From Datnioides undecimradiatus (Eukaryota; Chordata; Actinopteri; Lobotiformes; Datnioididae): DNA of 64,000 nt. Where the stretch lies: positions 10,870,023-10,934,022 of the forward strand of contig WARS01000013.1 in assembly GCA_008933995.1 (NCBI GenBank), written 5' to 3'. The notes under the pieces were generated by a model. It did not search any database. It was not told where the DNA came from and was given only the letters and a program-made list of their open reading frames with translations. A program made the position numbers and the translations under genes. This document shows positions 34,294 to 63,439 of this stretch, in pieces (within the stretch, counting starts at the first letter, position 1; each line of letters begins with the position of its first letter).

Positions 34294-35336
34294 CTAGTAG
34301 TGGTAATCTTCTTCATCTTCACCCCCATCTGCAAAAATAAAGGTGAAGGCGGGCTCTTCAAAACCGTAATGTTCATGGAAAATGCCACCGTCCTCCACAT
34401 CATGATGAACGATCCAGTGGAAGTCTGGCTCCTCCATGAAGGGACTATCATCAAAGTCATGGAAGATGTCTGCAAAATGGAAGTGGAAATTTGCCTCGTA
34501 TTCATCCTCAGGATCAGTGGGGGAGTCATCTTTTAGGAAAGCCTCATGACCCATGCTGTCATACACCCTCCTTGTTTCCTTGTTGGAGAGCACCTTGTAT
34601 GCTAGAAGAGGAGAAAGCATTGCTTTGGGTGAGATACACTCAGTTACAGGTTCATACTGGGTGCACCAAGCTGAAAGTAACAGTCTGTAACAACAGTTGC
34701 AATAAATCCTGCCTCCTGAAGCATTTTGGTGTTTGATAACACTAAATGTGCTGTTGAATTTGTATTGCATTACACTGTTTTGTTGTTTGTTTGTTTTTAA
34801 TATCTTCCATCCCAGTTATATAAGTGACAAATAGTAAAATTTGTAGAATCTGTAGTTTTGAAAACAAAACAGTGTAAGTTTCTTGAATGTTGGATTTGCT
34901 GTAGCAGATGTTGTTAGGCTGCATCACTTCAAGATGGGTCTGCTTCAAAACTGGCTGTTTTATGTTAAGTTGATAAAAACTGTTTTAAAGTGATTACACC
35001 ATTTTATTTTTGTTAATGACTTGTTCACCATTATAAAAACTACACTAAAAAAGGATTATTTTTTTAAAGGAATGTTTTACCTTCAGCAATCTCCCTGAAA
35101 GTCTTCTCTGCCTCGGCGCTCTTATTCTTATCGGGGTGGTACTTAATGGCCAGCTTGCGGAAATTCTTCTTTATCTGGCTGTCAGTTGCAGTTGGCTCAA
35201 CATTGAGAGTATCATAGTAATTTCTGCTTGTCTCTGGGGCAGCAGGCAGGACTTCAGATAGGCAGAGCTGCAGGACCACGCAGAGCTGCAGGATCACGCA
35301 GACTTGCATCCAGTGCAAAACACCTTGCGCTGCCAT
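34294..35336 (-). CDS. DNAJB9-like ER J-domain protein
   Basis: Coding exons are 35081-35336 and 34294-34601 (minus), with intron 34602-35080; together 187 codons plus stop. Residues 10-31 are a hydrophobic signal peptide or anchor. Residues about 39-108 form a J domain with NYYDTLNVEP, the HPD tripeptide at 67-69 (KYHPDKNKS) and a helix IV ending YDSMGHEAF, very like DNAJB9 (ERdj4). The J domain stimulates BiP ATPase, and DNAJB9 works in ER-associated degradation and restrains IRE1. The remaining 79 residues are acidic and rich in Phe and His (FHFHFADIFHDF), end EDEEDYHY, and lack the cysteines of the human tail. Human DNAJB9 is 223 residues, so the tail is short and unlike it. No KDEL-type signal is present. 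It could be a divergent paralogue and not the main orthologue. Confidence 0.85.
35263..35298 (-). repeat. 18-nt tandem duplication inside the signal peptide
   Basis: Two adjacent 18-base units, 35,263-35,280 and 35,281-35,298, differ at one base. They encode the repeated VILQLC / VVLQLC of the DNAJB9-like hydrophobic leader. Confidence 0.85.
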
Positions 35337-36550
35337 GCTGGGCGCCTAAGCAGAGATGAGCAAGTTTGGTGTTACACAAAGAAGTTATCTGGAAGTACAG
35401 TTACCTTGCGGTTTGGGAGGTCATCTGCATATTTACATAGTGTAAAAGCTGTTCAGATTACACGTCAGCAGTACCAGTACTCTGCAGCCGAGCGGACAAC
35501 TCTTCCCAGACCCTGTCTCAAAGAATTAGTTTACCAAAATCGACTGACAGCTTTAAGACTCAAGATTGTTAACGCCTCCTCCAGCCGAAATACGCACAAA
35601 ATGTGGAAGTGAAAGTGCATGAAACTAAATGCAACCTCTCACGGCTGTTCCAAACTGAGCTCGTGGTCGTTCAGCAAAACCATTACCACCGGGTCTCTAG
35701 AAAAATGTCTGATTCTGCTTTTATAAAGCAAACAAAGTAGATACACATTGGTTGCAGTTCGGGAAAGTCACCACTAGATGGTAAGGTGGCGCTAAGAGGA
35801 AACGGTGAGGAAGAGGATCATCTTCTTCGTTGGTACTGAAAGATGCATGAAGAAATGTGGTAAACAGCACCGGGGCCTTGAAGAATTGTCAAAAATAACA
35901 CACAAGCCTGATAGCTTTTGTTAGCAGGAATAGCTGCGTAGATTTCATGAATCAGGGAAAGGTGTTTCTGCGAGAGAGTTAGTCGTCAGTTCTCCGGACA
36001 CTGTTCATAGTTTCCAGGTAAGACATCATAGCATTTAGCAAGTTAGCCAGATAACGTTCGCAAGCTAATATTAGCCTAAAATGGTGGCACCAACTTATTC
36101 AGGTACAGGGCACGACAGACTGTGCTTCCTTTACCGACCTTTAGCCCTGTGCATTGAGTTTAGCCTCGCATGATATGGACCCAGTTGTTGTTTAGTGTTA
36201 TTTTAACATCGTGCTGGCTGCTGTTGACCACTCGTTGACAATAACACCACCAGTGTTACTCAATATTTGCCGGTTGTTGTCACGTGCTGGCTGTTTTTCA
36301 GCCCTCGCTTTATCCAGTTGAACCAGGAATTCCTTCCCAAAATCTTTCATGTCCATGTTCTGCTTTACCTTTAATGCTAATGTTTCAACTTGGGTTTATG
36401 TTTTTATCTTGCAGATCTTTAGGGGATTGCACTGCTCCAAAGAAAATCTGTTCATGACTTCTTTACCTGTGTATGTGAATGTTTGCCAGGTCACGTCAGC
36501 CCCCCTCATACACATGAGTGCCGTTTTCTCCTCGCGCTGGGCCGAGCGCC
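35337..36550. promoter_or_regulatory. head-to-head promoter region with zc3h10 5' UTR
   Basis: The DNAJB9-like gene starts leftwards and zc3h10 rightwards from this interval, so the two probably share or abut promoters. For zc3h10, a non-coding exon ends at 36,017 (TTTCCAG followed by GTAAGA) and the next begins at 36,415 after ATCTTGCAG, 136 bases before the chosen ATG. The interval is richer in CpG than the left half of the window. I see no convincing TATA box. Transcription start sites cannot be placed. Confidence 0.5.
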
Positions 36551-38869
36551 ATGCCTGACCGGGACAGTTCCTACCTGTCAGGTGGTGGTGGGAGTGCTGG
36601 TAGTCTGGGTGAGGAAGGAGGACCTGGGTCTGGTTTGGCAGGGGGCTCCACAGAGGGCAGAGGAGGTTCAGGAGGAAGTGTTGGAGGCAACGTCTCTGGT
36701 TCTGGGAGCATGGGGGGTGGAGGGGCGCTAGGAAATGGCAACAGCTGTGGGAACGGGGGAGGTGGGGGACAAGGTGCAGGACTGGCATTGGACGGTGTCT
36801 GCAGGGACTTCATACGCAACGTCTGCAAGAGAGGGAAGCGCTGCCGCTTTAGACACCCAGACTTCAATGAAGTTCCAGACCTCGGAGTGCAAAAGAATGA
36901 ATTCATCTTCTGTCATGACCACCAGAACAAAGAGTGTATGCGCTCCAACTGCCGCTTTGTCCATGGCTCTAAAGACGATGAAGACTATTACAAGAAAACA
37001 GGAGAGCTGCCCCTCAGACTGAGAGGCAAAGTTGCAGCACGGCTGGGCCTGTCTCCCATGGATCTTCCCCATAGCCGTGGGGAGGTCCCTATCTGCAGAG
37101 ACTTCCTGAAGGGAGAGTGCCAGAGGGGCAATAAATGTAAATTCCGCCATGTCAAAAAAGACTATGAATATGAGCCTTCCAGGGTTGGAGTCGGTGGTGT
37201 CGTGGGGCCAGGTACCAGTGGAATGGTGAATGCTGGTGGAGGGATAGGTGGTGGTGGAGGAGGTGCCTGTGGAGGAATGCAAGGACTTGTTGGAGGTGGA
37301 GGAGGAAGTAATATGATGGGGATGGGTTGTCCTAGCCTGGGCGGGTGCAGAGATCCAGGTATCTCAGGAGTTGGGGGAGTAGGTGGAGGTGGTATGAGCG
37401 GCTGCCTGTCTATAAGCTCTGCAGGGCAGCGACGTTATGACAGAAGCTCATGCTCTGTGTATGACCCTCTGCTTGAAAGTGGGCTTTTTGATGCTGGCTC
37501 CCTGGAGGCCTCAATGGACCACACCGCTCTGCAGTTGAAGAGGAGGCGTTTGGAGGGGCTGCGTTTGGCAGATGGGAGTGGAGGAGGACACTATGAGCTG
37601 GGAGTACAAGCCACCTTGCCACCACGTCCTCTGGAGTACAGGTTTCTAGAGGAAGAGAACTCACTGCTGAGGAAGAGAGTGGAAGAACTGAAGAAGCAGG
37701 TTAGAATGAGAGGTGGAAAAAATAAGCATGTAAACATAATTTGTATCTTTGTGCAATCCACATAAGAAATTACACCAGATCTTCCCCTCATGCATTGTGG
37801 TTCATTCAAGTCTAAATACATGATTTTATTTACTATGAAATATAATTTGCCTTTTTAATAACCAATACCAGATACAATAGCATTTGAAACAAAGTTAAAA
37901 ATATCAGAGGAGTTGATGCAAAACGATTGCAGCATGACAGATTAATGTTAATGTACTCTAAAGTTTGTGACCTGAACAGGATCAACTACAAGTTTAATAC
38001 AGAAAAATATGAGTTTATCTTCCTTTCTGTATTATTGAACAGTAAGAATTGTAGCCAAGCTGAGATATAGCAGACCTATTTCAAACCTAAGGAAGGGTTT
38101 TTCCTTCACTGTCACCTGACTAAAACAGCAATGAATTTATTTGGGAATGTTTAAAGGATAAGATCTTCTGTAATATCACATGACACAAACAGTGTGGGAA
38201 GAGTAACCATTTCTTGTTTTTTCTGTACAAACTTATTTAGTCAAACCTGCAATTATGTTTAGTGATTATGTCTAGAGTTGCCTGTCAATAAACCGTTTTC
38301 TTTTTAAACCCAGTGCACAGGCATTTTCTCTAACCAATGTATTGTGTGTTTCTCAGGTTTCAAATCTCATCGCCACAAATGAAGTTCTTCTGGAGCAGAA
38401 TGCCCAGTTTCGAAGCCAGGCCAAGGTCATGACGCTGTCTTCCACTCCTGCACCCACCGAACAGAGCCTGGCACCCCCTGTGGGCGCAGTGAGTTCCTAC
38501 AATCATGGCATAGCCCAGACTCACACTACCCTGAGCAGCGCTGGACTGCAGCCTCGGCCTGTGACCCAGCAAGACCTGGTTGCTCCTACTGGCGCTCCTG
38601 CAGCGCCCCCAACAAATGCTGCCCCACCTACAGCCCCTCCACCTCACCTCAACCCTGAGATCACCCCCCTCTCAGCTGCCCTTGCTCAAACCATCGCACA
38701 AGGGATGGCACCACCTGTTTCTATGGCACCAGTGGCTGTATCTGTGGCACCAGTGGCAGTGTCCATGACACAGCCCCTGCCTGGCATTACCATGAGTCAC
38801 GCCACCACTCCAATGGTCTCATACCCGATAGCAAGTCAAAGCATGAGGATCACAACTCTGCCTCATTAA
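36551..38869 (+). CDS. zc3h10: zinc finger CCCH-type containing 10
   Basis: Coding exons are 36551-37699 and 38357-38869, joined in frame to 553 codons plus stop. Three CCCH fingers: residues 84-102 (C-x7-C-x5-C-x3-H), 121-138 (C-x7-C-x4-C-x3-H) and 182-200 (C-x7-C-x5-C-x3-H). A leucine-rich coiled coil, YRFLEEENSLLRKRVEELKK and onwards, runs through about 363-405 across the splice junction. The C-terminal Pro/Ala-rich region ends SQSMRITTLPH, almost identical to the human ending. ZC3H10 is known as an RNA-binding regulator that inhibits some pre-microRNA processing and affects mitochondrial function. The start at MPDRDSS matches the mammalian start; an in-frame ATG 33 bases upstream would add 11 residues. 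It is longer than the human protein because of Gly-rich stretches at 11-78 and 213-284. esyt1 follows on the same strand, as in mammals. Confidence 0.95.
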
Positions 38870-40270: not shown

Positions 40271-43200
40271 ATGCAAAGCGACAAATCTCAACCGAGTGAG
40301 CCTAAGGGCGCTGAGAAGAAAGCGCTGAGCACTGTGGCGACAGAAGCTCCTAAACCGAAGGGGATAAGTGCCGTCGCGGTGCTGTGGACGTTTGGGAAAT
40401 GCCTGGGAGCCTTGCTGCCCGTCTACCTGGCCGGGTACTACCGGGTCAGCACCAGTCTGTTGGTGTGCGGCATGATGGTCTACACGGGATGGAAACATGC
40501 CCGAGAAGCCAAGGAGGCGCGCCTGAGGTCGGCCATACAGTTTCTCAACAACGAGGAGGAGTATACATCCATGAAAGTGTCCAAAATCAAGCGAGATCTT
40601 CCTGCGTGGGTGAGAAATGAGCCTGCAAACTGTCAGCGTGTCTTATACCTTTATGAAATATCCACACATCAGCTCTCTACTAACTTCGCGGATCCCATTT
40701 TGACCTAGAGTAACCCCGCGTTACGCGTAATAAATCATAATATGTGAACCCTAAAATCATAATCTCGCCAGCATGCACCCGCTGCAGGGGTTTTCCAGTA
40801 AATCAGGCCAGTCATATCTTATTTTTAGCTAATACGGCATAGGTCCAGTCTTTGTCCAGTCCACTTTTAATGTGGATTTTCTGCAAATGTATCTAGGCGG
40901 GTAGATCATATTAGAAACATAAACTTTTAGTTTCATCAAGAAAACATTGGAGGAAACGTTTCCCATCACTCACTTCTGTGTGAATAAGATGCAGCCACTG
41001 CTCTTGATTCTTGATACTCTCTTAAAAACAGTTTTTCTTACTGTCCCCAAATGATATTAAGGTCCTAATTATAAGATGCATGTAAGCAGATGTGCAAAAG
41101 TCCCTTTTCGTTGTATGCCCTTTGTTTCCACATTACTTTTACACTATTTGTTCTCACGTTATTTCTACTAAGGCAGTTGCAAATTTGCCTTGTATCTGTT
41201 TGCATTTCAAGACCAAACTTGTTTGAAAGCATAATGTGGAAATTCTGAAAACATTGCAACTGCAACAAAACAACCCATAAAACTACTGGGTCCTGTGTGC
41301 AGTTTCAACCAATGTGACTAGAAAAAAAAGTCAATAAGCATCACAGTCTTGATTTGCCTGCTATACATCCTTAGGGTATATGCACCTAAAATATAAAACC
41401 CGCATGGGGCTGTTTGGACCACACCCTGTTCCTGTGGCTACTTGTCATTGAGTGATTTCAGTGATTGCTTGCATAAGCACACAGAATGCATGCTCCACAT
41501 CAAAGTATTCAAAACAAGGTATTATCATGTTGTTCCCTGGTGTTTCTCTCCAGTATGAATAACAAATGGAATGAATAAGAATTGATTCTGAGATTTTCAC
41601 ATTTCTTATGTTTAAAACTGGGTGTAACAAGCACTTTGGTGAAATTATCAGTGCTTTTGATGACATTTCCAGCTGTCAAAGGAATCCTTTCCCTACCCTG
41701 TTGTTGTTTACTAGGATTAATGGAGTATGTGCCTATTGTTTTTCTTCCTTTCAGGTCAACTTTCCAGATGTTGAGAAGGTTGAGTGGCTGAATAAGGTAA
41801 AATGTCAGTGGTTTCCTATTACACTTCACCTTTCTACTGTATGACATTAAACAAAGAGGGTTGTTTTCCTCCTTTAGTAAGCCCACAGCAAACACATGCA
41901 TCTGTCTCTTCAGTTGCCCAGCTGCTGTGCTGATTGACAGTCAGTAGAGTATGCTACGCTAGCTGTTAGTAGCTGATAGATTGTAGCACTACTGCTGTTG
42001 CTGCCATGTTCCAGAAAAGGCCACACCCCCATTAGTCTAGCCACTTTGTCTGTACTGCAGTGAGCAGGCCCTGTGCCAGGCAACTCTCTCAACATTTCCA
42101 TTTCATTGCTGGCTAGCTCACAGGAAGGAGGAGGAGCTGCCCAGCCCCCAAAACTAAATTAAACCATGACATTGCCCCCCTTTTTTGCTTCCTTCTAGCC
42201 CAGAGAAGCTAGAGACATTAATATAGACATGCAGAAATAAAAGTATTCGTGCTAACAAGACCACGAGATCCAAGTGACAGAGTGCCAGACAAAGCAGAGG
42301 TTTAAGACACGTTACTGGAGGGGGTGGTCAGCAGATTCCCTCGTTGTGCTTTATCCTTCACAGAAGCAGGCAGCTGATGACTCATTCTCTACTTATGCCA
42401 CACTGTAAACGAACTCTGGGTTTCTTTTTTTCACAGTTACACAAGCGCGCAAGCAAACACTGGCTTTGCTTTTGGTTCTTTCCCACTTAAAATAATACCA
42501 AACATGTTTATGTAACAACATTTATATTTTGCATGAAGTATTACCACGTAGTGTTCTTGATTCAGTATGCTATACACAAGGACCCAAAGTAGATGTTGAA
42601 CAGCTGAGGAGGCCCAACTGGTCTGCAGCTGTCATTCTTCAGTCTTTGCATATGAAAGCCAAAGCATGTGACAGATTTTTCCATGAGGTTAAAATGACAA
42701 AGTTTTCTTACAGAGAACGCCTAGTTGCAGGGATATATGTTGTACATTATGATTTATCATCACTCATAAAAAAACATATCACTGCTGACATGTCTAGGTG
42801 CTGCAGCAGGTGTGGCCATTTGTTGGCCAATACCTCGAAAAACTGCTGGTGGAAACCATTGCCCCATCAATCCGAGCCTCCAGCACCCATCTCCAGACCC
42901 TCAGCTTCACAAAAGTAGACATGGGAGACAAGGTGATGCCACTAATAGCTTAACTAAAAAATGATACTGCCATGAAGAATCGCAAAAGTGATGCATGCCA
43001 TTTATATCGTTTAAATAAATGTGTTGTCTGTTTGCTCCAGGCCATGAAGGTTGTAGGGATTAAGGCACACACAGAGAATGACAAAGGACAAGTCCTGCTG
43101 GATCTGTATATTAGGTAAATATTTATCCATTGTTCTTTGTGAGTCACCGCCACGTCCGTGTTCCAACTTTTAAAAGGCACTGTTGTCTATGACATTTTTG

Positions 43201-43982
43201 TTCTTCTGTCCTCAGCTATGTTGGCAATGTTGAGATCAATGTTGAGGTTAAGAGGTACTTCTGCAAAGCTGGAGTCAAAGGAATACAGGTCTGTCATTTC
43301 AAGCTTAAAAGTATAATTTGACTGAATTACAGAGTAACATGGCATTAATAGAGACGACATCACAACCATGCTTTTTCCCTACATGTCTTCAGCTACATGG
43401 GATGATGCGGGTGATTCTGGAACCTCTGATTGGAGATGTGCCAATAGTTGGTGCGGTCACCATGTTTTTCATCCAGCGGCCTGTATGTCCATACACATTC
43501 ACCTCTGTTTGTCCTTTTCTTGTTGCCTCTCAACCCCCACTTCTGTGACTATCATGTATCTCAGTATATATATAGTCTTGTATGCATTTCCTGCTATTGA
43601 TTTCAAATCTATCCTGAATGATTTACATCACACAGCACATTTCTCTGTCTTATCTCTTCCAAGAAACTAGACATCAATTGGACTGGACTGACAAATTTGT
43701 TGGATATACCTGGACTAAAGTGAGTTATGCTGAAATTGGTTTACACATTAATAACAACCACAACTTTACAATAAACAAAATCTCACACTATTTTATTCAT
43801 GTATGGGTTTTATTATAGTGTGTACATTTGCATTTAAATGCTGTTTGTTTTTTTGTCTCAGTGTCATGTCTGACAGCATGATCATGGATGCTATTGCCTC
43901 CTTCTTGGTGCTACCCAACCGTTTGGTTGTCCCACTGGTTCAGGGTCTGCATGTGGCCCAGCTCCGCTCTCCGTTGCCCAGG
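40271..43982 (+). other. esyt1: esyt1 exons 1-8: ER anchor and SMP domain
   Basis: Exons: 40271-40609, 41755-41796, 42798-42932, 43041-43114, 43216-43288, 43393-43482, 43664-43719, 43862-43982. Exon 1 (113 codons) carries the hairpin: ISAVAVLWTFGKCLGALLPV and the following VSTSLLVCGMMVY, with basic residues after it. Exons 2-8 encode the SMP domain. Landmarks shared with human ESYT1 are FPDVEKVEWLNK, VWPFVGQYLEKLL, KRYFCKAGVKGIQLHG, ILEPLIGDVP and FLVLPNRLVVPLV. Intron 2 (41,797-42,797) contains an open frame that is only intron sequence. Confidence 0.92.
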
Positions 43983-46900
43983 GTAAAGTAGAATATTCAC
44001 AGACTACAGACAGAAGGACACTATTTGATATAATTACGCACCTCATGTAATACCAACATATTATATGTTTGACTTTTTCTTTCTTAGGGGGTGGTGCGCA
44101 TCCACCTAGTGGAGGCACAGAATCTAGCAGCAAAGGACAACTACGTGAAAGGGGTAATGGCTGGCTTGTCTGACCCTTATGCCATTTTAAGGGTTGGCCC
44201 TCAGACCTTCACATCCAAACACATTGACAACACAGACTCTCCCAAATGGGAAGAAGTGTATGAGGTATGAAGCAAAGTTTTACAGTTTGAAGTTTGTGTC
44301 ATCATGTGCATATAAAAGTTTTGGAAGAGTCATATGTCATTTCACATTTTTCTGTGTTTGGCGAATCAGACTGTTACACATACAGCGATGAGAATATTCA
44401 TTGTCACTCATGGTCACATGTAGCTGTAGCCAGCTTCCATACAAATCCCCCTGTCAGTCTTCATGTCCTTGTGTGTGTCCGCTACATCAGGTCATAGTCC
44501 ATGAAGTGCCTGGTCAAGAGTTGGAAGTGGAGGTATATGACAAAGACCCAGACCAGGATGATTTCCTGGGCAGGTACATATGCATAGTTCATGTCTCCCG
44601 TGTGTCTATGTTGAATCTTGCATTGTCACCTTTCATCAGTCATCTGTCATGGCAAGGTGGAAAAAGAACACATCTTTTTTCCTTTATTTGAAACATGATG
44701 ATAATTTTATTGTTTATTTAATTCTGTTTTACACACCACCAGGACCAAATTGGATTTGGGCATCGTAAAGAAATCCATAGTTGTGGATGATGTAAGTAAA
44801 ACACTATTGTCATGACATTCACCGTTTGTATAAGCACCGCTATGATCTTTGGATTGTCAATATGTGTCTGTGACTGTCTTCCTAGTGGTTCACTTTGAAA
44901 GACACTCCGTCAGGGCGTGTTCATTTCCGACTGGAGTGGTTGTCATTGCTGCCCAGCACTGATCGGCTAGAGCAGGTTTGAGTCACTCATTTCCACTGAT
45001 GATCTATAGTAAAACATTTGCGTGTGTGAATGGCTTATTCATCATTGTGTTAAACATTTATACTGAAAAAACGTGTTTGTGATTTTCCTCTAGATCCTGA
45101 AGAGGAATGAAAATGTAACTAGCAAGGCTGGTGATCCACCCTCTTCAGCCATCTTAGTTGTATATCTGGACAAGGCTGAGGCACTTCCTGTGAGTCAAAT
45201 GTCTCTACCCTCTGTACCCACATTCGTGCTGAGCACAGAGCTGCTTCCTGTGTGTGTGGTTAAACCGAGGCAGAGCAGTTAACTGCCACCTGTCTGGCAT
45301 TCCTCAAAGTTGTTGGCTTGGCCTCTAAGCCTGTGCACGCCTGTGCACTCTAGCATGCGGGAGTGTGGCTAGCTTTATCAAAGGCTGTTAAATACAGATT
45401 GTACTAATATCTGCTGTTATGCCATCCACTAAAGGGAACAGAAGTGACAAAATTGTTGGAATGAAACTCAGCCTTTGTGGTTTCTTTCAAAGATTTATAC
45501 TTCCTGATTATGCCATGCAGTATGTTGCTTCCTGTCAGCTATTTGTACTGTTGCTATGGTAGCCTTATACACAGCATTATTCACATCAACGATGTGTTGT
45601 CTGAATGATAGATAAGTCTATTTATTGTTCCACTCTTGGTTACAGAATGCCATTGTTCACATGCCTTACTGCGTGTTCATATTTGTCTGTGAATTTGTCT
45701 GTGACTCTGTGTCTTTTAGATGAAAAAGGGAAATAAAGAGCCCAATCCTATGGTGCAGTTGTCTGTGCAGGATATCACTAGAGAGAGCAAGGTATATCTC
45801 CTAGAAAAGTCCATCAAAGCACATGAGATTGTGTTTCTAATTTATTTCCATTTTATATGCATCCTATTTATTCTTGCCTTTAGACTTGCTACACAACCAT
45901 TAATCCAGAATGGGAGGAAGCCTTCACCTTCTTCATCCAGGATCCTCGCAAGCAGGACATAGACATTCAGGTAACAGCTCCTCTGATGAGTGCACTAAAC
46001 TTTGTGTTTGATATTCTGAAAGCCAAATATGTACTCGTCTTATTTTGACTCTCCATGCTAAATCAACCAGGTGAAGGACGCTGACCGAGTGCAGACGCTG
46101 GGCAGTCTGACTATCCCTTTGTCCCGCTTGCTGTCCAATTCTAATCTTTCTCTGGACCAGTGGTTCCAGTTGGACAACTCTGGATCCGCCAGTCGCATCT
46201 ATATCAACACAGTTCTGAGGGTAATTGGCAGCAAGGCACATATGTTGCACTTCATATGACCATTTAATGAATGCCATCTTATCTACCATTTCCTTGAATT
46301 TAGTCACTTTCTTTGCTTCTGTATGTCCCTTTACTATTAATATATAGGTTCTGTGGTTAGATGAGGAACGTATTCTATCTGATGTGTCCTCTTCTCTGGA
46401 TGCCGGACTGTCCAAACAGCGGCCCCAGCAGACATCCCCTCATTCCAGCTTTGCCACAGAGGTAATAGAGGACTGTAGAATTCTGACTTTGACTTAGGAC
46501 TGACTCTTTTTAGGATAAATTTCACATATGTTGCTACCCTAATGAGTTTGTATTTTTTTCAGGGACTGCTTAGAATTCACCTTTTGGCAGGGCAGAATCT
46601 TGTTCCAAAAGATAACATGATGGGAGGCATGGTCAAAGGCAAGAGTGACCCCTATGTCAAGATCAACATCGGAGGAGAAACATTCACAAGTCGGGTGATC
46701 AAGGGTAACCTTAACCCCACGTGGAATGAGATGTATGAGGTAAGTATAGAGGTTATTTATTAAACATAAATGTAACCTTTTAATTGTTGTAGGATTAATA
46801 AAAGTGTCTAAGGTTTTCACATATATATATATATAATGGTCTGGTTTGAGAGTCATTTGACAGTTTTGTCTTTGTTTCAGGTGATTCTTACGCAGCTACC

Positions 46901-49900
46901 TGGCCAGGAGCTGCATATTGAAGTGTTTGATAAAGACATGGATATGAAGGATGATTTCATGGGCAGGTACAGTAGCTATAAAAATTCCATTATCAAACAA
47001 GATGGGTAGATTTAGTAAAGATACCTTCTAATCTCACATATCCCAACATGCAGGCTGAAGATCAGTCTGAAGGACATCATCGATTCTCAGTACACTGACC
47101 AGGTGGGATCCTTCTAACCAAAAAATGTATACGTGCATAAACATGTTTAGCTTCAAAGACCGCACTCAAAGAAGCTCCAAGCCAACATGTGAGCCTGCCA
47201 TTCCTTAGGTCTAATTCATGTGAATGAGCAGGTCTCTAACACACTTTGTTAAGACACTTAACCCTCTCCAACCTCCAACTATCATGTGGTGTCAGACATA
47301 ATATGTTTTAAAGTCTTGACCACTGCTTCAGCAAATCTGCAACTGAAATATGAGTAAAAACCTGCACAGAGTGAAAGTGACTCTATATGAGAAGACTTTG
47401 GGTTTTTAATCCTTATTTGTTTAATTCTATTTACCCCATGCAAAGTTGACAGTCTTGTGGTCCTTGCGCTGATGCTCTTGATCCTACTTCCTCAAAGGAA
47501 TGAAGGCTTAGTCCAGAGGACGTGAAGAGTCTCTGACAATGTTCAGCGCTAGTGGTCAACTCAATTTAACTCCCCTGACTAACCTTTGAGGTCACTGTTA
47601 TTGCAGCTGGAGAACCAAATGGTGATGCAGTATACTAGCATACTCCCCACCATGTCTCTGTAGAATGTTTTGTTAGGGGGCAGTGATGATTGTTTAGAAA
47701 TAGAAAGTGTATTCTCTGCTGGACCCATTTCAAAAACTGTAGTGTTTGTCACCTAGGTGACTTTTTTCTCAAAACTCTGCACTCCAAGGAACTTGATGTT
47801 TTCCTCAATGATTTTCAGCACTTAAAAGCATTTAGTATGTGAGAAAAAGAACAAGCAGCACAAACATCTCATGTTTTAGCAACATCACATAACCACTGTT
47901 GTTTCCTTTGTTTCCACCATGCCCTGTATTTCCTGCGTTAAAATGACCCCATATTCTCTCTTAGTGGTACACTCTCAGTGATGTGAAGTCTGGTCGAGTT
48001 CACCTGGTGCTGGACTGGGTTCCAACAGCCTCCGAGTCAGACAGATTAGATCAAGTTAGTATTTCCAGATAAATCATGTATTGTTGGACTCTTGCTCCTT
48101 AGCTTGGTTCATACTGACTGGTTCATTCTTGTGTCCTCAGGTTCTTCACTTCCATTCCAAACAGTCCTACCAAAACAAGGCAGTTCCTTCAGCAGGCCTA
48201 CTGTTTGTCTTCATTGAGCAAGCAGATGGCTTACCAGTGAGTCTTAAATTCCTGAAGCTTAGGAGATTTCAGGAGATGCAGTTGTTGCTCATAATTCACA
48301 TGCCTTTATTACTATTGCCTTTTTGTTTCTGTACAGGTTAAGAAGAGTGGCAAGCAGCCAAAAGTGGGAGCAGAGGTTACTCTTGGAGAGACGTCCCGTA
48401 AAACTACAGTAAGACCTCAAACATCACTCAGTTTAGGTGTGATCAGTGTCCTGTGTTCACTGTAATTGTGACACAGTATTAACAATACTGACTGACTCTT
48501 GTATCTCTGAAGGTGTGTGATCGGACCACGTCACCTCAGTGGAATGACGCATTCTGCTTCCAGGTTCAAAACCCCAGAGAGGATATTCTTGTTGTTAAGG
48601 TACGCCAGTTTTAGTACATAAACAAGTGGAACAAACGTCAGTCATGTAGATGCAAAGATTGTAATCTCTGAAACATAGTAACTGGTCCTGTGCTTACAAC
48701 CTGTGCTGTGTTTCTCCAGCTCTCCCACAGCTGGACTTTGCCCATTGGTTCCCTGGTGGTTCCAATCAGAGAGTTGCTCGTTGAACCAGAGCTGGTCCTG
48801 GACCAGTGGTTTCATCTGGATGGAGCGTCACCTGAGAGTCAGGTTCTTCTTAGGGCTGAACTCAAGGTGGGAGAACTCTCTTACTGTTGCTCTTGTCATT
48901 TTCTATATAGTATATGACCTTTAAATTATTTTATCTCCATATCACTTTCACTTTGCATCTTTTTTTCTATGTGTCCAAATGTGTTTACCTGTAACATAGT
49001 TATATTTGTATATATTTTTACTTTTACTAAGTGTAACAATGTGAAATATGTCTTGCCGTTGCTTTTTATCTGGATGTCTCAGTCTATTGTGCAGTCAGTT
49101 TGCACCTGTTTTCCCCATTGTTTAAATATGAGGCATTTGAGCCATTTGTTTAATTTTGTGCTTTATTTTTATTTAAAACCAAGGCTGTTACAAAGTTGGT
49201 TAATGAAGTGACATGATGATTATGTCGATTCAACTACAGATGCTGATTCCAAGCAAATGTCCAGGTGCTGATGATAAGGCTAAGGTCACCTTAGTGTCAG
49301 ACCCTTCCCCTGCTCAACGAAAACAGGAGACAGACACAGTGCAGAGGTGAGTTGGTGAAGTTTTCATTCGAATGGTCTTTCCCTGCTTTTCCTTTGTTTT
49401 TTTATTGCTGATCTTGTTTTTAGGTCAAGTTCAGTGGACGCTCCTCCTGTGGAGACTCTTGTCCCTTCAGTGACATCACATGAAGATGTTGACATAAAGG
49501 AAATAACCACTGATGTGACTGAGGAGAAGGTAGAAGAATCACCGAGCCCTGCCTCAGCACAACCTCCCCATACTTCCCCAGATCTCAGCTTTGCCAGTGA
49601 GGTAGTATGACAAAATAGTGATCTACAGTAACAGATACATGTGACAAATTTAATAAAATTCCATTTAATAAAAAAAAATTAGAAAGTTAAATGTTCCCTA
49701 TCTGTAGGGGCTGCTGAGAATCATCCTTTTGGAGGCCCAGAGTCTGGTTGCCAAAGATAACAAGATGGGTGGTATGGTGAAGGGCAAGAGTGACCCCTAT
49801 GCCAAGATCAATGTTGGAAAGTTTGCCTTTAAGAGTAATGTAGTCAAGGAGAATCTCAACCCAGTCTGGAATGAGATGTACGAGGTGGGTATGAAGGAGT

Positions 49901-52900
49901 TGATCGGCTATGAGCGTGAATTTGAATAACTGCAATAATCCAGTCTAATCTAAATGCTCCGTATTTCCCCAGGTGGTGCTGAGGCCTCAGTCAGGGCAGG
50001 AGGTCCAGGTAGAGCTGTATGACAAAGACATAGACAAAGATGACTTCCTGGGAAGGTAATGCCTAATGTGGAGGTTTCTAGTTAAGTCTAGTCTAGCTCT
50101 AATCTCAATTGCCTCAGCAAGGTATTCAGTGGATCGACATGTATACAGGCCCATAGTTATTGAAATTACAGATATATTACCATATGGTGTATATTTGAAG
50201 ACTGATTTAATGAAAAATTAGCATTTAGTGTGTCTCAAATCATCATTCTACTTCTTCTGTGTTTGCTTTTTATAATATAGGAAAATATTAATGATGTATT
50301 TTTGTATGGCAGTTTATGGGTTGAGTTTCATTTTCACAGATTTTGCATCTAACTCATGCTAATGTGTAAAATGTGCAGATTCAAAATCGGTGTGGCTGAC
50401 ATTATCCATTCCCAGTACACAGACCAGGTCAGTATTACCTGCCTTACTGTGTCAGCGTTTTTGCTGCAGTGTAATCATAGGCCCCTAATTCAGGTGTACA
50501 TCTGTTTTAGTGGTACACCCTGAATGACGTGAAGTCTGGACAAGTTCGCATGATATTGGAGTGGGTACCAACAGTGTCCCATAATGCCACACTGGACCAG
50601 GTTAGTCTAATCTGTATCAATTGTCTGGCTCTTCTTTCTTATTCATGCACACTATTAATCGTTTGCACCACCTATTCCTCCCACATCTGCACTGCTTCAA
50701 ATATGAGTCTCTGCTCAGTTTACTGTGCACACCAGTGCTGAGTCATTGTGATGTATTTTTAATTTGATCCATTGCCGCAGGTGATGCAGTTGCAGACTCT
50801 CCAGTCTTACCAGAACAAGGCCATTCCCTCTGCAGCCCTGCTCTTTGTGTATGTGGACAGAGCACACTCATTGCCTGTAAGTGCCTTGCAATGTGTTGCA
50901 CTAAAAAACACCTTTTTAAGTATATTGCCATGGACTTTTAGACTAATTTTAACAACAGGTCTACTGTTGACATTAAGTGAAAAACTCATTCACCTGCCTC
51001 TTAAGATACTGTTTTTGTCCTGGATGGAAATAAACAAAGACTTGAGAAACAGTTGCTGCTAGCTGAGTAACAGTCACCGATGTTGGATTGTATGATACAC
51101 AGATGTGAGTCAGACGTGTTTTGTTTTTTTAAAAGAAAGGGAAGTTGGATTGGATTTTGACCCATTGCTGCCTTAATTACAGAGAGTGAATGCAAACTAT
51201 TCACATAATGTTGTGTTCTTTGTCTTTCTGCATCCAGTTTAAGAAAAGTGGGAAAGAGCCTAAGGCTGGGGCTGAGCTTGTTTTTGGAAACACAACCTAC
51301 AAAACCAAGGTTTGAGACTGATTTAAATTAAATAATACTGAATTAAATAAAAGCGCACTTTGACTATGCCAGACTATCACCAATGAATGTTAATGAATGT
51401 GTAAAAATACATCGTTTAACCTGTTTCTTCTTTGATTGATCGTTAATCATTTTGTCATTAAAATGTCATGATAATGTCCCCATGACCTTTTCACAGAAAC
51501 CAAACCAGTTTGCTGCAATGGCTCAGAATTTTTTGATAAATGACAAAAAGTTGTTATGTTAAAATTTGAAAGAGCTTAACTGAGGCACCCCTCACTGGTA
51601 GAAGTGAAAAAGACACAAGGCTTGATAACAGTGCCTGCTTGTACCACCACAATGCTGTTCAAAGTACCCACTGAAACTTTATCAAAGAAGAAACAACTTT
51701 ATCTAAGTGCAGAGACCATAACCCCTCACCCAACTCATCCCTCCTGTTTTTCTATCTGAAGGTATGTGAAAGCTCCAGATCACCTCAGTGGAATGAGGCG
51801 TTTTACTACTTTGTTCAAGACCCCACAAAGGAGATTCTCATCATAAAGGTGAGTGAACAGCGTGTCTCACAATATTCATTCACCTGCTGCATGTGTCCTT
51901 AGCATCTCCACCTCTGACCGACATTATTAATGTGTCCTTGTCTCTGTAGTTGTCAAGTGCATGGGACCAGCCAATGGGATCTCTCGTAGTTCCTGTGCGA
52001 GATCTGCTCTCTCAGCCGCAGCTGGTCCTGGACCAGTGGATGCCTCTAGATGGAGCTTTACCTGAAAGTGAGATCCTACTGAGGGTTGAACTCAAGGTAA
52101 AAGAATACACACACGCACACACACAGGGTTATTACCATTGTCACTGATACACAGAATAACCAAATGGGAATGTACTGTTGGCAGATGCTAAGCTCAAGGA
52201 TGACTGAAGCCCCACAGCCCTCTGTGAATGCTTCAAAGAAAGAGGAAATGCTCATTCCCACTGATCAGACCTTCAAAGCAGCCAGTGAGGACAGAAAAAG
52301 CTCAAAGCTACCAACAGATGAGTAAGTGTTATGTGCCCGATTTGATATGCCATAAGCATCAAAACCATACCACTCAGTGTAATTTAAATATAAAGAAGCA
52401 CATGCTGGTTGTGGTCTGGTTGTGGTGTTTTGTGACATCAGTGTGTATTTTCAGATTGGCTGCAGTATCCAGCCAGCTTGAACACTCTGAAGCAGCAGAA
52501 TCAGACACTGCAGCCTCCACAGAAGATGCTGGTCCTGCTGAACCAGCTGCCATTCACACTGCACCTGATTCATTACCTGCTGCTGCAGTGAGTCACAGTA
52601 CACCGTACTTAGTCAATATTAACTTTAACTTGTCTGATTTCCCCCTGCACAACCATCATGTAATTTTCCTCAGCTGGTGCAGGAAACAATGGATCTAGAA
52701 GATCACCCCACACAGTCAGACACAGCAGATGAAGGAAACTTTGAACCACAGCAAATAAAGACAGGGGGGTGAGCTCCACATCATAGCAGCCCTTTCTTTG
52801 CTTCAAAGATCTATCAGTGGAAGAATAGAAGGAAACCTAACTTGAAACATTTCTGCTCTGTTTCTGTGTGTGTAGTATTGGTTTAGACAACCTTGCTCAT

Positions 52901-53728
52901 GCCACAGTGACTGGTCTTCCTGCTGAAATCCAGGACCCAGCAGAGGAAACCCCCAAAGCTGGTGAAGTTCTTCCACCACACACCACACCCAAACAGGATT
53001 TTGCTAAGGAGGTGGGTAAAGACTGTGCCTTCATTTGCAATTTTTTATATATATTCATAATTTGAAAGAAAATTGAAAACACAGCTGCAGTGTACAGGAA
53101 GGATCATTAATTTTTTCTGTACAAAACAAATGTCAGGGCCAGTGTTATGAAAAATATGTGTTTGATAAGAGATAACGTTAACAATAACATCATGCCAGTC
53201 ATTCATTATCCTCAGTCTTAGACGGTGAACTGATGGTGCTGAATAATTTCAGCCTCACATGTTGGTTTTTCTGAGTAATCCCACTATTTTTTTTTCCAAA
53301 TATTATGAATGTGCCACTTCCTCTTGTCCTTAAATACTTAACTATGTTCTGCTAGGCAGATTTCAGCTTCCTCTGCTGTTTTTTGGAACTCGTGTATGCT
53401 TTGCTAAATTTTTGCAGAACAGCAGGAGGCTCCAATTAAAACGTGTGCCAGCTATTGTATTGTACAATATACAGAAGTCAGGTTTGAAGTAGGAGCTTTT
53501 ACTAATGTAGAAACAAGAAAAACAAGTTCATGGAGCAAACTTAGATAAGGAAACTTGGCTTAAAAAGATTCTAAAGGCGGTAACTTTTTAGGAGTGCTCA
53601 TATGTCAAAGTGCCATTTATGATTTTGAAATGATTAAAATAACTTAATTTGATAGGAAACAAACATCCAAGTAGTCTGAAAATGTTTATGGTTCAAAAAT
53701 TCCCAAGTTTTTTTTGTAAACAAAGCTT

Positions 53729-53764
<36 letters not shown>

Positions 53765-56700
53765 CTTTATTCATCCCAAACTGGGAAATTTCAATGTTGC
53801 AGCAGCAATTAACAATTAACAAGCACCCAGCATTACAATAGACAATATACAAAACTATTTACAAAGATAAAAAGAGATAAATATATATAAGAAAATATAT
53901 ACAAAAAAGTACAAAGTAAAGAATAAATCTACTAAAGTTTCCAGTGACGTGTGCCAGAAGTGTGCAAGTGTCTGCTGTTCTTACAGTTTGTCATCTGACA
54001 CGCGCAGATGAGGAGTTGTAAAGTCTGATTGCCTGTGGCAAGAAAGACTTCCTGTAGCGGTCCTTGAGACAACGAAGCTGCCTGAGCCTTTTGGAGCCTT
54101 TTTAATCTCATGTTTTGATAAAATGTTCTGAAATTATGACATAAGGAAAACAAAGCTTATTTAACAGTTATATTCATGGTGTCCCCAGCTGTGGAAGCTG
54201 CTTACGTCATGTGCTCAGTGACTTCCTGTGTGCATTTTAACATGCACAATGCTCATCCTGTAGGGGCTGTTGAGGATTCACCTGCTGGAGGCTCAGAGTC
54301 TGGTGGCCAAGGATAACCTGATGGGGGGCATGGTGAAGGGCAAGAGTGACCCCTATGTGAAGATCAACATAGGGGGAGTTGGGTTCAAGAGTCATGTTAT
54401 CAAGGAGAATCTCAACCCAACATGGAATGAAATGTATGAGGTATGAAGTTGGTTTCAGGATTGTATATTGTCTTGATTGCACCATATGCACAGTATTTTC
54501 TATAAATTTGGGTTGTATTTGTTTTAAAGGTGGTTTTGAGTGGGAGCAGCATCCAGGAAATCAAGTTTGAAGCATTTGATAAGGATTTAGACTCTGATGA
54601 TTTCCTTGGCAGGTGTGTGTCATCTGTATTTGTTAATAATGTTTAATTAGATGCTGATTTGCTTGGTAAGAATTCTAAAAAAGATACACCTGTAAATGTA
54701 CATATTTTTTCGAGGAAATGCATTAATGCATTTAATAAAACCAAAGAAATGAGAGAGTTGTCAGAGGTTCTTGAAATCCTACAAAGTGTATTAAAGAGCT
54801 TATGTAGAGCCTGCTAGTTCTCATTACAACAGTTTTCACTATCAACAACTGTGCCATGTTTGGTACCTGAGGAAATGGGTTTTGAAATTGATTGAAAAGT
54901 CTGTGAATTTTAAGATTTCAAAAAGTGTGGGAATGTATAACCTGTACCTGTAAAGGGTCTGCATTATTATTGTCTGCTATTTCCATTAGATACTTTTTAT
55001 AAACCTTTAATGCCAGAATAGAACATTTTCTGTTTCTGTATATACGACACTGAAATTTAAATCGTATTGTTAACCATACGCCTGTTTTATTGTTCACAGA
55101 TTCAGTGTTAAGCTAAGTGAGGTCATCAGGTCCCAGTACACAGATCAGGTTAGTTAATAATTCATACTTGAAAGTTATACCAAGTGATTACTAATCTGTT
55201 CTGTGTTACTTCGGTATATAAATGGTGTTGCCCTCCTTCTTCTTAACTGTCCTTGTCTCTGCTGCAGTGGTACACTCTGAATGATGTGAAGTCTGGACGT
55301 GTTCACTTAATACTGGAATGGGTTCCCACAGTGTCACATTCAGACACACTTGACCAGGTTGGTCCTTACCGATGTTTACAGCTCCAACCTTTACTCTCAG
55401 TTTATTTACATTTTCTTTGAACATTGACTGTTAAAACAGATGTTGTTCAGTCACATTCCAACATGCGACTTGCCTCAGTCACATTGAAAGATACTGTCAG
55501 CCCTAACTGCCTGTGCTCTGTGTTGCAGGTACTGCAGCTTCAATCTCTCCAGTCTTATAAGAACAAAGCTGTCCCTGCTGCAGGTCTGCTCTTTGTCCAC
55601 ATAGAGAGAGCACATTCATTACCTGTAAGTAACCTGCAATTTGTTTACATACTCAAGTATAGTTAACAAAAATGATTTCTCACATAATAATCCTTGTCAC
55701 TGCCTCTCCCTTCCATAACAGTTGAAGAAGAGTGGAAAGGAACCCAAAGCAGGAGCTGAGCTTGTTCTCGGTGAAACCATCCACAAAACCAAAGTGAGGC
55801 TCTTAGCGTTGTACTCAGTCTGATTAATTATTACTGTAATCTGATATATCACATCATGTCTTTGTCATTTTGTCTTTGAAGCTGTGTGACCGTAGTGCCA
55901 GTCCTCAGTGGAGTGAATCTTTCTACTTCCTTGTCCATGATCCTAAACATCAGATGCTTGTATTAAAGGCAAGTCATTTATTTGCATTGTCTGAAGGATC
56001 TATGTTTACATTCAACAACATTAACAGTGTGAATTTTTCATCCTCTCTCTCTTTCGCATCGCAGTTGTCCAGTGGTTGGGACCAGCCAATGGGATCTTTG
56101 GTTGTTCCTGTCAAGGAGCTGCTTGCACAGCCACAGTTGGTCCTTGACCAGTGGTTCCATCTGGATGGGGCCTTACCTAATACTCAGATCCTGTTGAGAG
56201 CTGAACTCAAGGTGAGAAAGCAAACACATCTGCCCCCCGCCAACACACACACACATTTTTTTGGTATTCAACAACTATCATTATCAGTAATGACTCTTGT
56301 TTCTTCTATTCTGAATTTGTTTTCAATAGATCCTAAAGTCCAAAATGGTGGATATGATCAGTTCAGGGACTCTGCCCTGTGCTGCCTCTGCCTGTGGATT
56401 TGGAAATGGGCAGGTGAAGTTGTCTCTTTCATATGCCTCGCCGGACAGACAGCTCATTATCATCGTCCACGCCTGCAGGTCTGCTTTCTCAATTAGTGTG
56501 CCAAAACACTCAGTCAGATTGTCAGTCAGTCACAAGGAATGTACTGTTGTTATAGTTATAGTCCTTCAATTCAGAATTTATCACAAGTTTATTTTTCTTT
56601 CAATATTATTGTGGCACCTCTTGGTTTAATGGTTAAATTACTCAGAGTTTAAATACCTCATGTCTCATTTCAGGACCTGACTACTCACAGTATAGGTAGA

Positions 56701-57942
56701 CATGTCTGTTTGTCTGTTTGCTAAAAGGTCAGATTTTATTGACTTGCCACATGTTGCTGCTGTGAAAGTCACTACGACCTAATTGAAACCACCATCTATG
56801 ACACGCACTGACACTGACATGTTAATTTATATCTCTGATTTAAAGATATGGACATAAGAAAAACCAATAAAATTTAACAAAGGGATGACATTGTTGATGG
56901 CAGCTAATATTAACAATAAGGAATTCACTCTTTACACATTGACTCCCTTTAATAGAGGCATTATACTTCAGTAATATACGGGGACTTTTGAGTATTATTT
57001 GGTTTTAACATGTATACCAATGAAAGATGTTTTTTCTTTCTTTGTACAGAGGTCTTTTGTCTCAAACTAAAGATGGTGTCGACAGCTATGTCTCCCTCAT
57101 GCTGTTGCCAGATAAAAGCAAAGCCACCAAGAGGAAGACAGCAGTTAAGAAACGAGACCTGAACCCAGAATATAATGAGAGGTAATTAACTATCTAATTG
57201 TATTGTCTTTGTATCCCTGTGCAGATTTTTTTGTTAAATCTCTGAAAATCTTTCTCAGTGTTTTCATTAAATGATCTTTTGTCAATTTCTTGAAGGTTTG
57301 AGTATTCTCTGCCTGCGGATGAGATGAGATTCAGGCGCCTCAGTGTATCAGTGAAGAATAATTCGGCCTCGTTCAGGAGCCGTGATGTCATTGGTCAGGT
57401 CAGTCTGATTCCTATTATCACCACCCCCTGAAACCCTAATATGGTTAAAAAAATACCATGACACAACTGGCAGGCCGTTGTTATGCAAGTTCACACTTTA
57501 CAAGAGCTAGCGGAAAACACAGCGCAAATACGTACGTTTAGATGTACATGGATTTCAACTGGGCCTTTTGCCACATGTCATCCTTTCCCTTTTTCCCCTG
57601 GCTTTCCTGTCTCCCTCAGGCTGTCACTGTCAATAAAGAAGGAGGAAGAATCTTAATCTCTAAATTAGTTTCGATCTGTTATATGTTTTTGATATGTTAA
57701 TACCTTTTCTCTATTCTTTAGGTACAGATCGAGTTGTCTCAACTGGACCTGACTGCTGGTGTCACAGAATGGTGAGCAGCGCAGACTGAACTTTGTCCAG
57801 ACTAAAGTTAAAGTGACACTCTACATAGAATGCCTGTTCTCTACTTTTCCATTGTTTAATGATCACCACTAATAAAGGCATTTTTGATAAACTCTTTTAA
57901 ACTCTCTATTCCAGGTTCACTCTGAAAGATGAAGCCGAATAG
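40271..57942 (+). CDS. esyt1: extended synaptotagmin 1 with nine C2 domains
   Basis: Fifty-two coding exons (listed in the module entries below) join in frame to 1,833 codons plus stop. Order: a double hydrophobic hairpin anchoring it in the ER (about 32-75), an SMP lipid-transfer domain (114-310), then nine C2 domains. Human ESYT1 is 1,104 residues with five C2 domains. Here the C2C-C2D pair occurs three times (617-884, 980-1246, 1414-1680), followed by a final C2E-like domain. E-Syts tether the ER to the plasma membrane in a Ca2+- and PI(4,5)P2-dependent way and move glycerolipids through the SMP. The start is supported by an in-frame TAG 18 bases upstream and by the match to the family N terminus. 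Repeat copies differ by about 10 of 59 residues in the compared exon and have unrelated introns, so this is not an assembly artefact. Weak point: isoforms skipping modules are possible. Confidence 0.93.
44088..46220 (+). other. esyt1: esyt1 exons 9-16: C2A-C2B module
   Basis: C2A exons: 44088-44264, 44491-44573, 44743-44791, 44886-44975 (177, 83, 49, 90 nt). C2B exons: 45094-45189, 45720-45791, 45884-45970, 46071-46220 (96, 72, 87, 150 nt). Residues 311-443 and 444-578. C2A has Ca2+-ligand acidic residues in loop 1 (AAKDN, LSDPYA) and loop 3 (YDKDPDQDDFLGR). C2B (LKK-type start MKKGNKEPNP, loop 3 VKDADRVQ) lacks the full set, as known for the human protein. Confidence 0.9.
46348..46461 (+). 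other. esyt1: esyt1 exon 17: linker before the first C2C-C2D copy
   Basis: A single 114-nt exon, residues 579-616, polar and low in structure, ending SSFATE just before GLLRIHLL of the next C2. Confidence 0.88.
46563..48866 (+). other. esyt1: esyt1 exons 18-25: C2C-C2D module, copy 1
   Basis: C2C exons: 46563-46739, 46881-46966, 47054-47102, 47965-48054 (177, 86, 49, 90 nt). C2D exons: 48141-48236, 48337-48408, 48513-48599, 48720-48866 (96, 72, 87, 147 nt). Residues 617-884. The C2C copy has KDNMMGGMVKGKSDPYVK and FDKDMDMKDDFMGR, with one extra codon in the second exon relative to the other copies. The C2D copy lacks the acidic loops. Confidence 0.9.
49240..49601 (+). other. esyt1: esyt1 exons 26-27: second linker
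   Basis: Exons 49240-49346 and 49424-49601, residues 885-979. Rich in Glu, Ser, Pro and Thr, probably disordered, ending DLSFASE. The matching end with exon 17 (SSFATE) suggests that the linker end was duplicated with the module. Confidence 0.88.
49708..52096 (+). other. esyt1: esyt1 exons 28-35: C2C-C2D module, copy 2
   Basis: Exons: 49708-49884, 49973-50055, 50379-50427, 50511-50600 (177, 83, 49, 90 nt), then 50781-50876, 51238-51309, 51762-51848, 51950-52096 (96, 72, 87, 147 nt). Residues 980-1246. The first C2 keeps KDNKMGGMVKGKSDPYAK and YDKDIDKDDFLGR. The second reads FKKSGKEPKAGAEL and lacks acidic loop residues. Confidence 0.9.
52185..53011 (+). other. esyt1: esyt1 exons 36-39: third, long acidic linker
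   Basis: Exons 52185-52321, 52455-52587, 52674-52768, 52876-53011. Residues 1247-1413, 167 residues rich in Ala, Glu, Pro, Ser and Thr with no domain that I recognise, ending DFAKE before GLLRIHLL. It is four exons long where the first linker has one. Confidence 0.82.
53729..54147 (-). mobile_element. 5'-truncated LINE insertion in an esyt1 intron
   Basis: The element is flanked by an 11-base direct repeat, AAACAAAGCTT, at 53,718-53,728 and 54,148-54,158. On the minus strand it encodes the end of a LINE protein (SFLPQAIRLYNSSSARVR then stop), continues through an untranslated part and finishes GGGATGAATAAAGTC followed by (TATC)n at the plus-strand left end. This is the usual 3' end of teleost non-LTR elements (Rex or L2 type; family not decided). 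It lies antisense to esyt1 in the intron between exons 39 and 40. Confidence 0.8.
53730..53764. repeat. (GATA)n microsatellite, LINE tail
   Basis: A pure tetranucleotide run that forms the 3' tail of the antisense LINE fragment. Confidence 0.95.
54264..56211 (+). other. esyt1: esyt1 exons 40-47: C2C-C2D module, copy 3
   Basis: Exons: 54264-54440, 54530-54612, 55100-55148, 55268-55357 (177, 83, 49, 90 nt), then 55529-55624, 55722-55793, 55882-55968, 56065-56211 (96, 72, 87, 147 nt). Residues 1414-1680. The first C2 keeps KDNLMGGMVKGKSDPYVK and FDKDLDSDDFLGR; the second lacks them. The intron after 55,968 starts GCAAGT, so it is a GC-AG intron. The exon end is fixed by the length and sequence of the other copies. 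Confidence 0.9.
56330..57942 (+). other. esyt1: esyt1 exons 48-52: final C2E-like domain
   Basis: Exons 56330-56478, 57050-57181, 57296-57398, 57722-57771, 57915-57942. Residues 1681-1833. Landmarks shared with the human C-terminal C2 are GQVKLSLSYASPDRQL, IIVHACR, SYVSLMLLPDKSK and KKRDLNPEYNERFEY. The exon layout differs from the C2A-D modules, in line with a separate origin. It ends WFTLKDEAE. This domain helps plasma-membrane binding in mammals. Confidence 0.9.

Positions 57943-59934: not shown

Positions 59935-63439
<3,505 letters not shown>

Follow-up and report, generated by a model that had tools for sequence, protein, structure and literature searches.

With high confidence, the gene described here is teleost esyt1b, an extended synaptotagmin that joins an SMP lipid-transfer domain to nine C2 domains. 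It lies in a 64,000-nucleotide stretch of DNA from Datnioides undecimradiatus (the window). In its sequence, a two-C2 module of eight exons occurs four times (units AB, CD, EF and GH) and is followed by a single last C2 domain. The nine-C2 architecture of esyt1b has been known for fish since 2007, and the window gene is a correct rediscovery of it in one more fish genome. The additions made here to the known architecture are small, namely the aspartate pattern of the C2 domains, the sister grouping of units EF and GH, and the acidic linkers around the added units.

The published accounts agree on the main features in the passages available from them. Craxton 2007 (PMC1976326) gives zebrafish FAM62A2 nine C2 domains versus five in FAM62A1, and Craxton 2010 (PMC2823689) states that an internal duplication in fish esyt1b adds four C2 domains. 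Takifugu, Tetraodon, Gasterosteus, Oryzias and Danio are the fish named in the abstract of the paper on the esyt1b duplication. Moreover, a G3 article of 2012 (PMC3484663) reports nine versus five C2 domains, with an increase in all teleosts examined and a likely origin early in the teleost lineage.

Gene model and domain architecture

Exons were first picked out by eye and the list was afterwards refined with a script; the resulting model of 52 exons is therefore a prediction. It splices to 5,502 nt without a single internal stop codon (Table 1). Of its 51 introns, 50 are of the GT-AG type and one, following exon 46, is GC-AG. This intron begins at 55,969 with a GCAAG donor; all other donors in the model are GT.

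Table 1 Features of the esyt1b-type gene, in positions of the window
Feature	Position	Strand	Basis
Esyt1b-type coding region, 52 exons, 1,833 aa, start to stop codon	40271..57942	+	Open spliced model; SMP and nine C2 domains
Exons 3-8, with most of the SMP lipid-transfer domain (Pfam: aa 118-296; domain start in exon 2)	42798..43982	+	Gene model, Pfam
Exons 9-16, C2A-C2B module (unit AB), most diverged repeat copy	44088..46220	+	Exon lengths and phases; 38-41% aa identity to the other units
Exon 17, linker C2B-C2C, 38 aa	46348..46461	+	Gene model
Exons 18-25, unit CD (C2C-C2D)	46563..48866	+	Repeat search, gene model, Pfam, identity comparison
Exons 26-27, acidic linker C2D-C2E, 95 aa; terminal stretch resembles the end of exon 17	49240..49601	+	Gene model
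Exons 28-35, unit EF (C2E-C2F)	49708..52096	+	Repeat search, gene model, Pfam, identity comparison
Exons 36-39, acidic linker C2F-C2G, 167 aa	52185..53011	+	Gene model
Exons 40-47, unit GH (C2G-C2H), GC-AG intron after exon 46	54264..56211	+	Repeat search, gene model, Pfam, identity comparison
Exons 48-52, last C2 (C2I) and stop codon; by position the counterpart of mammalian C2E	56330..57942	+	Gene model, Pfam

In the predicted protein, a hydrophobic stretch is visible at about aa 32-74, a candidate for the N-terminal membrane hairpin of extended synaptotagmins, and Pfam places one SMP domain (PF17047, E 1.2e-78) and, downstream of it, nine C2 stretches. The sequence-only reading had proposed that the gene encodes nine C2 domains, mammalian ESYT1 having five, and had expected nine matches in a search with the C2 profile; exactly nine were obtained. 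Furthermore, when the nine pieces of the protein were submitted separately, every one cleared the Pfam C2 cut-off of 22 bits, the lowest score being 40.7. A weak match to MLVIN_C in the protein and in its sister gene fell below the cut-off of that family and was dismissed as chance.

The protein belongs to the ESYT1 subgroup, as exon lengths, exon phases and the unit tree show a repeat of the C2A-C2B module that yields C2C-C2D. It further carries four C2 domains gained by internal duplication, and a five-C2 sister gene accompanies it, as is the case for teleost esyt1b. The name esyt1b is based on this architecture (nine C2 domains and a five-C2 sister gene), the fish sequences compared being those of its own genome.

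The repeated eight-exon module

Repetition is evident independently of the gene model. A repeat search run without the model found the first exon of the block in register at 46,557, 49,702 and 54,258 (73% and 81% identity to the reference copy over 185 nt), and the other block exons fall in further repeat families, several of them with three copies. In the gene model, the exon lengths are 177-86-49-90-96-72-87-147 in unit CD and 177-83-49-90-96-72-87-147 in both EF and GH, with the same phases as in CD. Thus the three eight-exon blocks first noticed in the sequence-only reading were recovered with their coordinates, lengths and phases. Unit AB, with lengths of 177-83-49-90-96-72-87-150, is homologous to the CD block, which brings the two-C2 module to four copies. 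Every module starts and finishes in phase 0, so that a whole module could be added without breaking the reading frame.

At the amino acid level, CD is 63.3% identical to EF and 68.5% to GH, and EF is 72.7% identical to GH; identity of AB to these three is lower (Table 1). This supports the earlier proposal that the blocks encode homologous C2 pairs and that repetition of the C2C-C2D block supplied the four extra C2 domains. Among CD, EF and GH, 26-30% of nucleotides and 27-37% of amino acids differ, with dN of 0.19-0.24 and dS of 1.2-1.7 (NG86). With an amino acid identity of 63-73% and a dN well below dS, neither chance similarity nor a recent duplication introduced by the assembly is a likely source of the three units, which have the appearance of old, constrained copies.

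Acidic linkers, 95 and 167 aa long, flank the added units. The former, between C2D and C2E, holds 18 acidic and 8 basic residues, and the latter, between C2F and C2G, 32 and 11, respectively. The linkers preceding CD, EF and GH have similar ends (TSPHSSFATE, TSPDLSFASE and TTPKQDFAKE), as has the corresponding linker of the sister gene (TTPDPEFATE). Owing to this likeness, part of the linker seems to belong to the stretch that was repeated. Additionally, an AGAT tandem repeat occupies 53730-53860 in the intron between the C2F-C2G linker and unit GH, and the stretch adjoining it resembles what we take to be a common fish repeat element.

Sister gene and order of duplication

A second esyt1 gene was found by comparing a shortened window protein with the 581 Mb of the same genome (497 contigs), 44 of 161 candidates being scored; a further esyt1 copy is thus conceivable. 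This esyt1a-like gene lies on contig C469 of the genome (G000) at 5,334,957-5,347,496, its last exon left out. Its model without that exon (1,081 aa) contains one SMP domain and five C2 domains. It has a single C2C-C2D block, whereas the window gene has three blocks and nine C2 domains. Exon lengths of its AB and CD blocks are those of the window gene, except for 83 where the CD unit of the window has 86. When the window gene's 32 module exons were searched one by one, 30 matched best in the one AB or the one CD block of this gene. For the remaining two, the 17-aa exons 20 and 42, that search gave no credible match in the esyt1a-like gene and only chance-like matches elsewhere. The AB units of the two genes share 70.5% of their amino acids, and the CD unit of the esyt1a-like gene shares 63-65% with CD, EF and GH of the window. 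The divergence of the extra units is thus similar in degree to that between the two genes.

Four trees of the units were built, with six or seven units in each. EF groups with GH as its sister, with support of 99/97 in the treekit protein tree, 98/97 in a second protein tree and 98 with codon positions 1+2; the value drops to 61 with all codon positions. A group of CD, EF and GH that leaves out the CD unit of the esyt1a-like gene is supported at 90.7/85 in the second protein tree and at 92 with codon positions 1+2, and the treekit protein tree gives no resolution for it. Against this grouping, the tree from all codon positions joins the esyt1a-like CD to the window CD at 64. Two trees (85-92) would thus place the first duplication later than the divergence of the two genes, whereas one opposes this at 64, so that either order may apply. 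NG86 estimates of dS between the esyt1a-like CD and the window units were undefined in two of three comparisons and 2.5 in the third.

Putative calcium-binding domains

Aligned to C2A of ESYT2, four of the nine domains (C2A, C2C, C2E and C2G) have aspartate at all six compared loop positions, which we take to be Ca2+ ligands. The full set is missing from C2B, C2D, C2F, C2H and C2I: C2B keeps two of the six, C2F and C2H one each, and C2D has lost most of them. This pattern predicts four putative Ca2+-binding modules instead of two. In the last C2 domain, C2I, 22 residues are basic and 18 acidic; among the other eight, basic residues outnumber acidic ones only in C2H (15 versus 14).

It is also conceivable that the two extra pairs have lost Ca2+ binding and serve only as structural spacers. 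The long acidic linkers hint that reach may be the decisive property, and the case for Ca2+ binding by the extra pairs comes from sequence. However, C2E and C2G retain all of the compared aspartates, which F, H and D have mostly lost and B in part, and we regard a pure spacer role as unlikely.

Reality of the repeated blocks

The blocks might be real and the modules skipped in most transcripts, in which case the usual protein would have five or seven C2 domains. Phase 0 at both block ends means that skipping could keep the frame, and arthropod Esyt2 has mutually exclusive alternative exons, according to the relevant passage of Craxton 2010 (PMC2823689), which also warns that predictions without transcripts need validation. 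Yet such skipping needs the simultaneous loss of eight exons, the frames are open in all units with dN well below dS, and the papers of 2007, 2010 and 2012 (PMC1976326; PMC2823689; PMC3484663), in the passages at hand, count the added domains in the product. Inclusion of the modules is therefore strongly preferred, and regular skipping is judged very improbable. Errors in which an assembly represents one block several times do occur in general; here such an artefact found no support and is rejected as having practically no chance of being correct, given the divergence between the units noted above, intron lengths that differ between blocks, linkers unequal in length and exon number, and the identical architecture described for other fish in the same three papers as far as they are available.

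Neighbouring open frames

Upstream of esyt1b, an open frame at 36,518-37,765 (+ strand) encodes CCCH zinc fingers and is presumably ZC3H10-like. Since we take ZC3H10 to adjoin ESYT1 in human, the neighbourhood looks conserved. A downstream frame at 61736-63343 (+ strand) has RING finger, Deltex C-terminal and DTX3L KH-like matches and is, as these matches predict, a deltex-3L-like E3 ligase gene. Additionally, a 173-aa frame at 34294-34815 (- strand), one part of which appears DnaJ-like by eye, had no Pfam match at E 0.001.

Comparison with known extended synaptotagmins and implications

The window gene shares with teleost esyt1b (zebrafish FAM62A2) both the nine C2 domains formed by repetition of a two-C2 module and the five-C2 sister gene, and no architectural difference between them was found in the passages available. 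In tetraodontiform fish, a single phase-0 intron of the added part has been lost, as the corresponding passage states (PMC2823689), whereas all seven introns are kept in each unit of the window gene. Mammalian ESYT1 (FAM62A) has in common with it the SMP domain, C2A-C2B, C2C-C2D, the last C2 domain and the repeated two-C2 module; it is described, in the part of the source available, with five C2 domains and two module copies (PMC1976326), compared to nine and four in the window. ESYT2 (PDB 4NPJ, 4P42) has a homologous C2A-C2B pair, with 49% amino acid identity to unit AB, and only three C2 domains in all according to the available text of PMC6141807, in contrast to nine in the window gene. Among the papers listed by searches of the open-access literature, no title or abstract start deals with the function of the nine-C2 form.

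In mammalian E-Syt1, as described in the available parts of two papers (PMC6141807; PMC10023780), Ca2+ works via C2A and C2C, and C2E binds PI(4,5)P2 of the plasma membrane. The window protein may operate in the same manner. Ca2+ acting on the first C2 domain of each pair (A, C, E and G) would promote plasma-membrane binding and lipid transfer, the last C2 domain would serve as the PI(4,5)P2 anchor, and the SMP domain would move the lipid. Moreover, the two extra pairs and the long acidic linkers probably extend reach and add membrane-binding sites. We infer that the protein is a longer tether under Ca2+ control, its putative Ca2+-binding modules numbering four instead of two. A more specific proposal, put forward tentatively and with less than even confidence, is a Ca2+-stepped tether in which four Ca2+-binding C2 domains, each paired with a non-binding one, are carried on long acidic linkers. 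Such a tether might respond to Ca2+ more steeply or more sensitively and reach further than five-C2 E-Syt1, and esyt1a and esyt1b might split the work at contact sites by range or by Ca2+ threshold. The presence of five-C2 and nine-C2 forms of E-Syt1 in one animal represents a natural comparison, through which the influence of linker length and of the number of Ca2+-binding C2 domains on contact distance and Ca2+ dependence could be tested.
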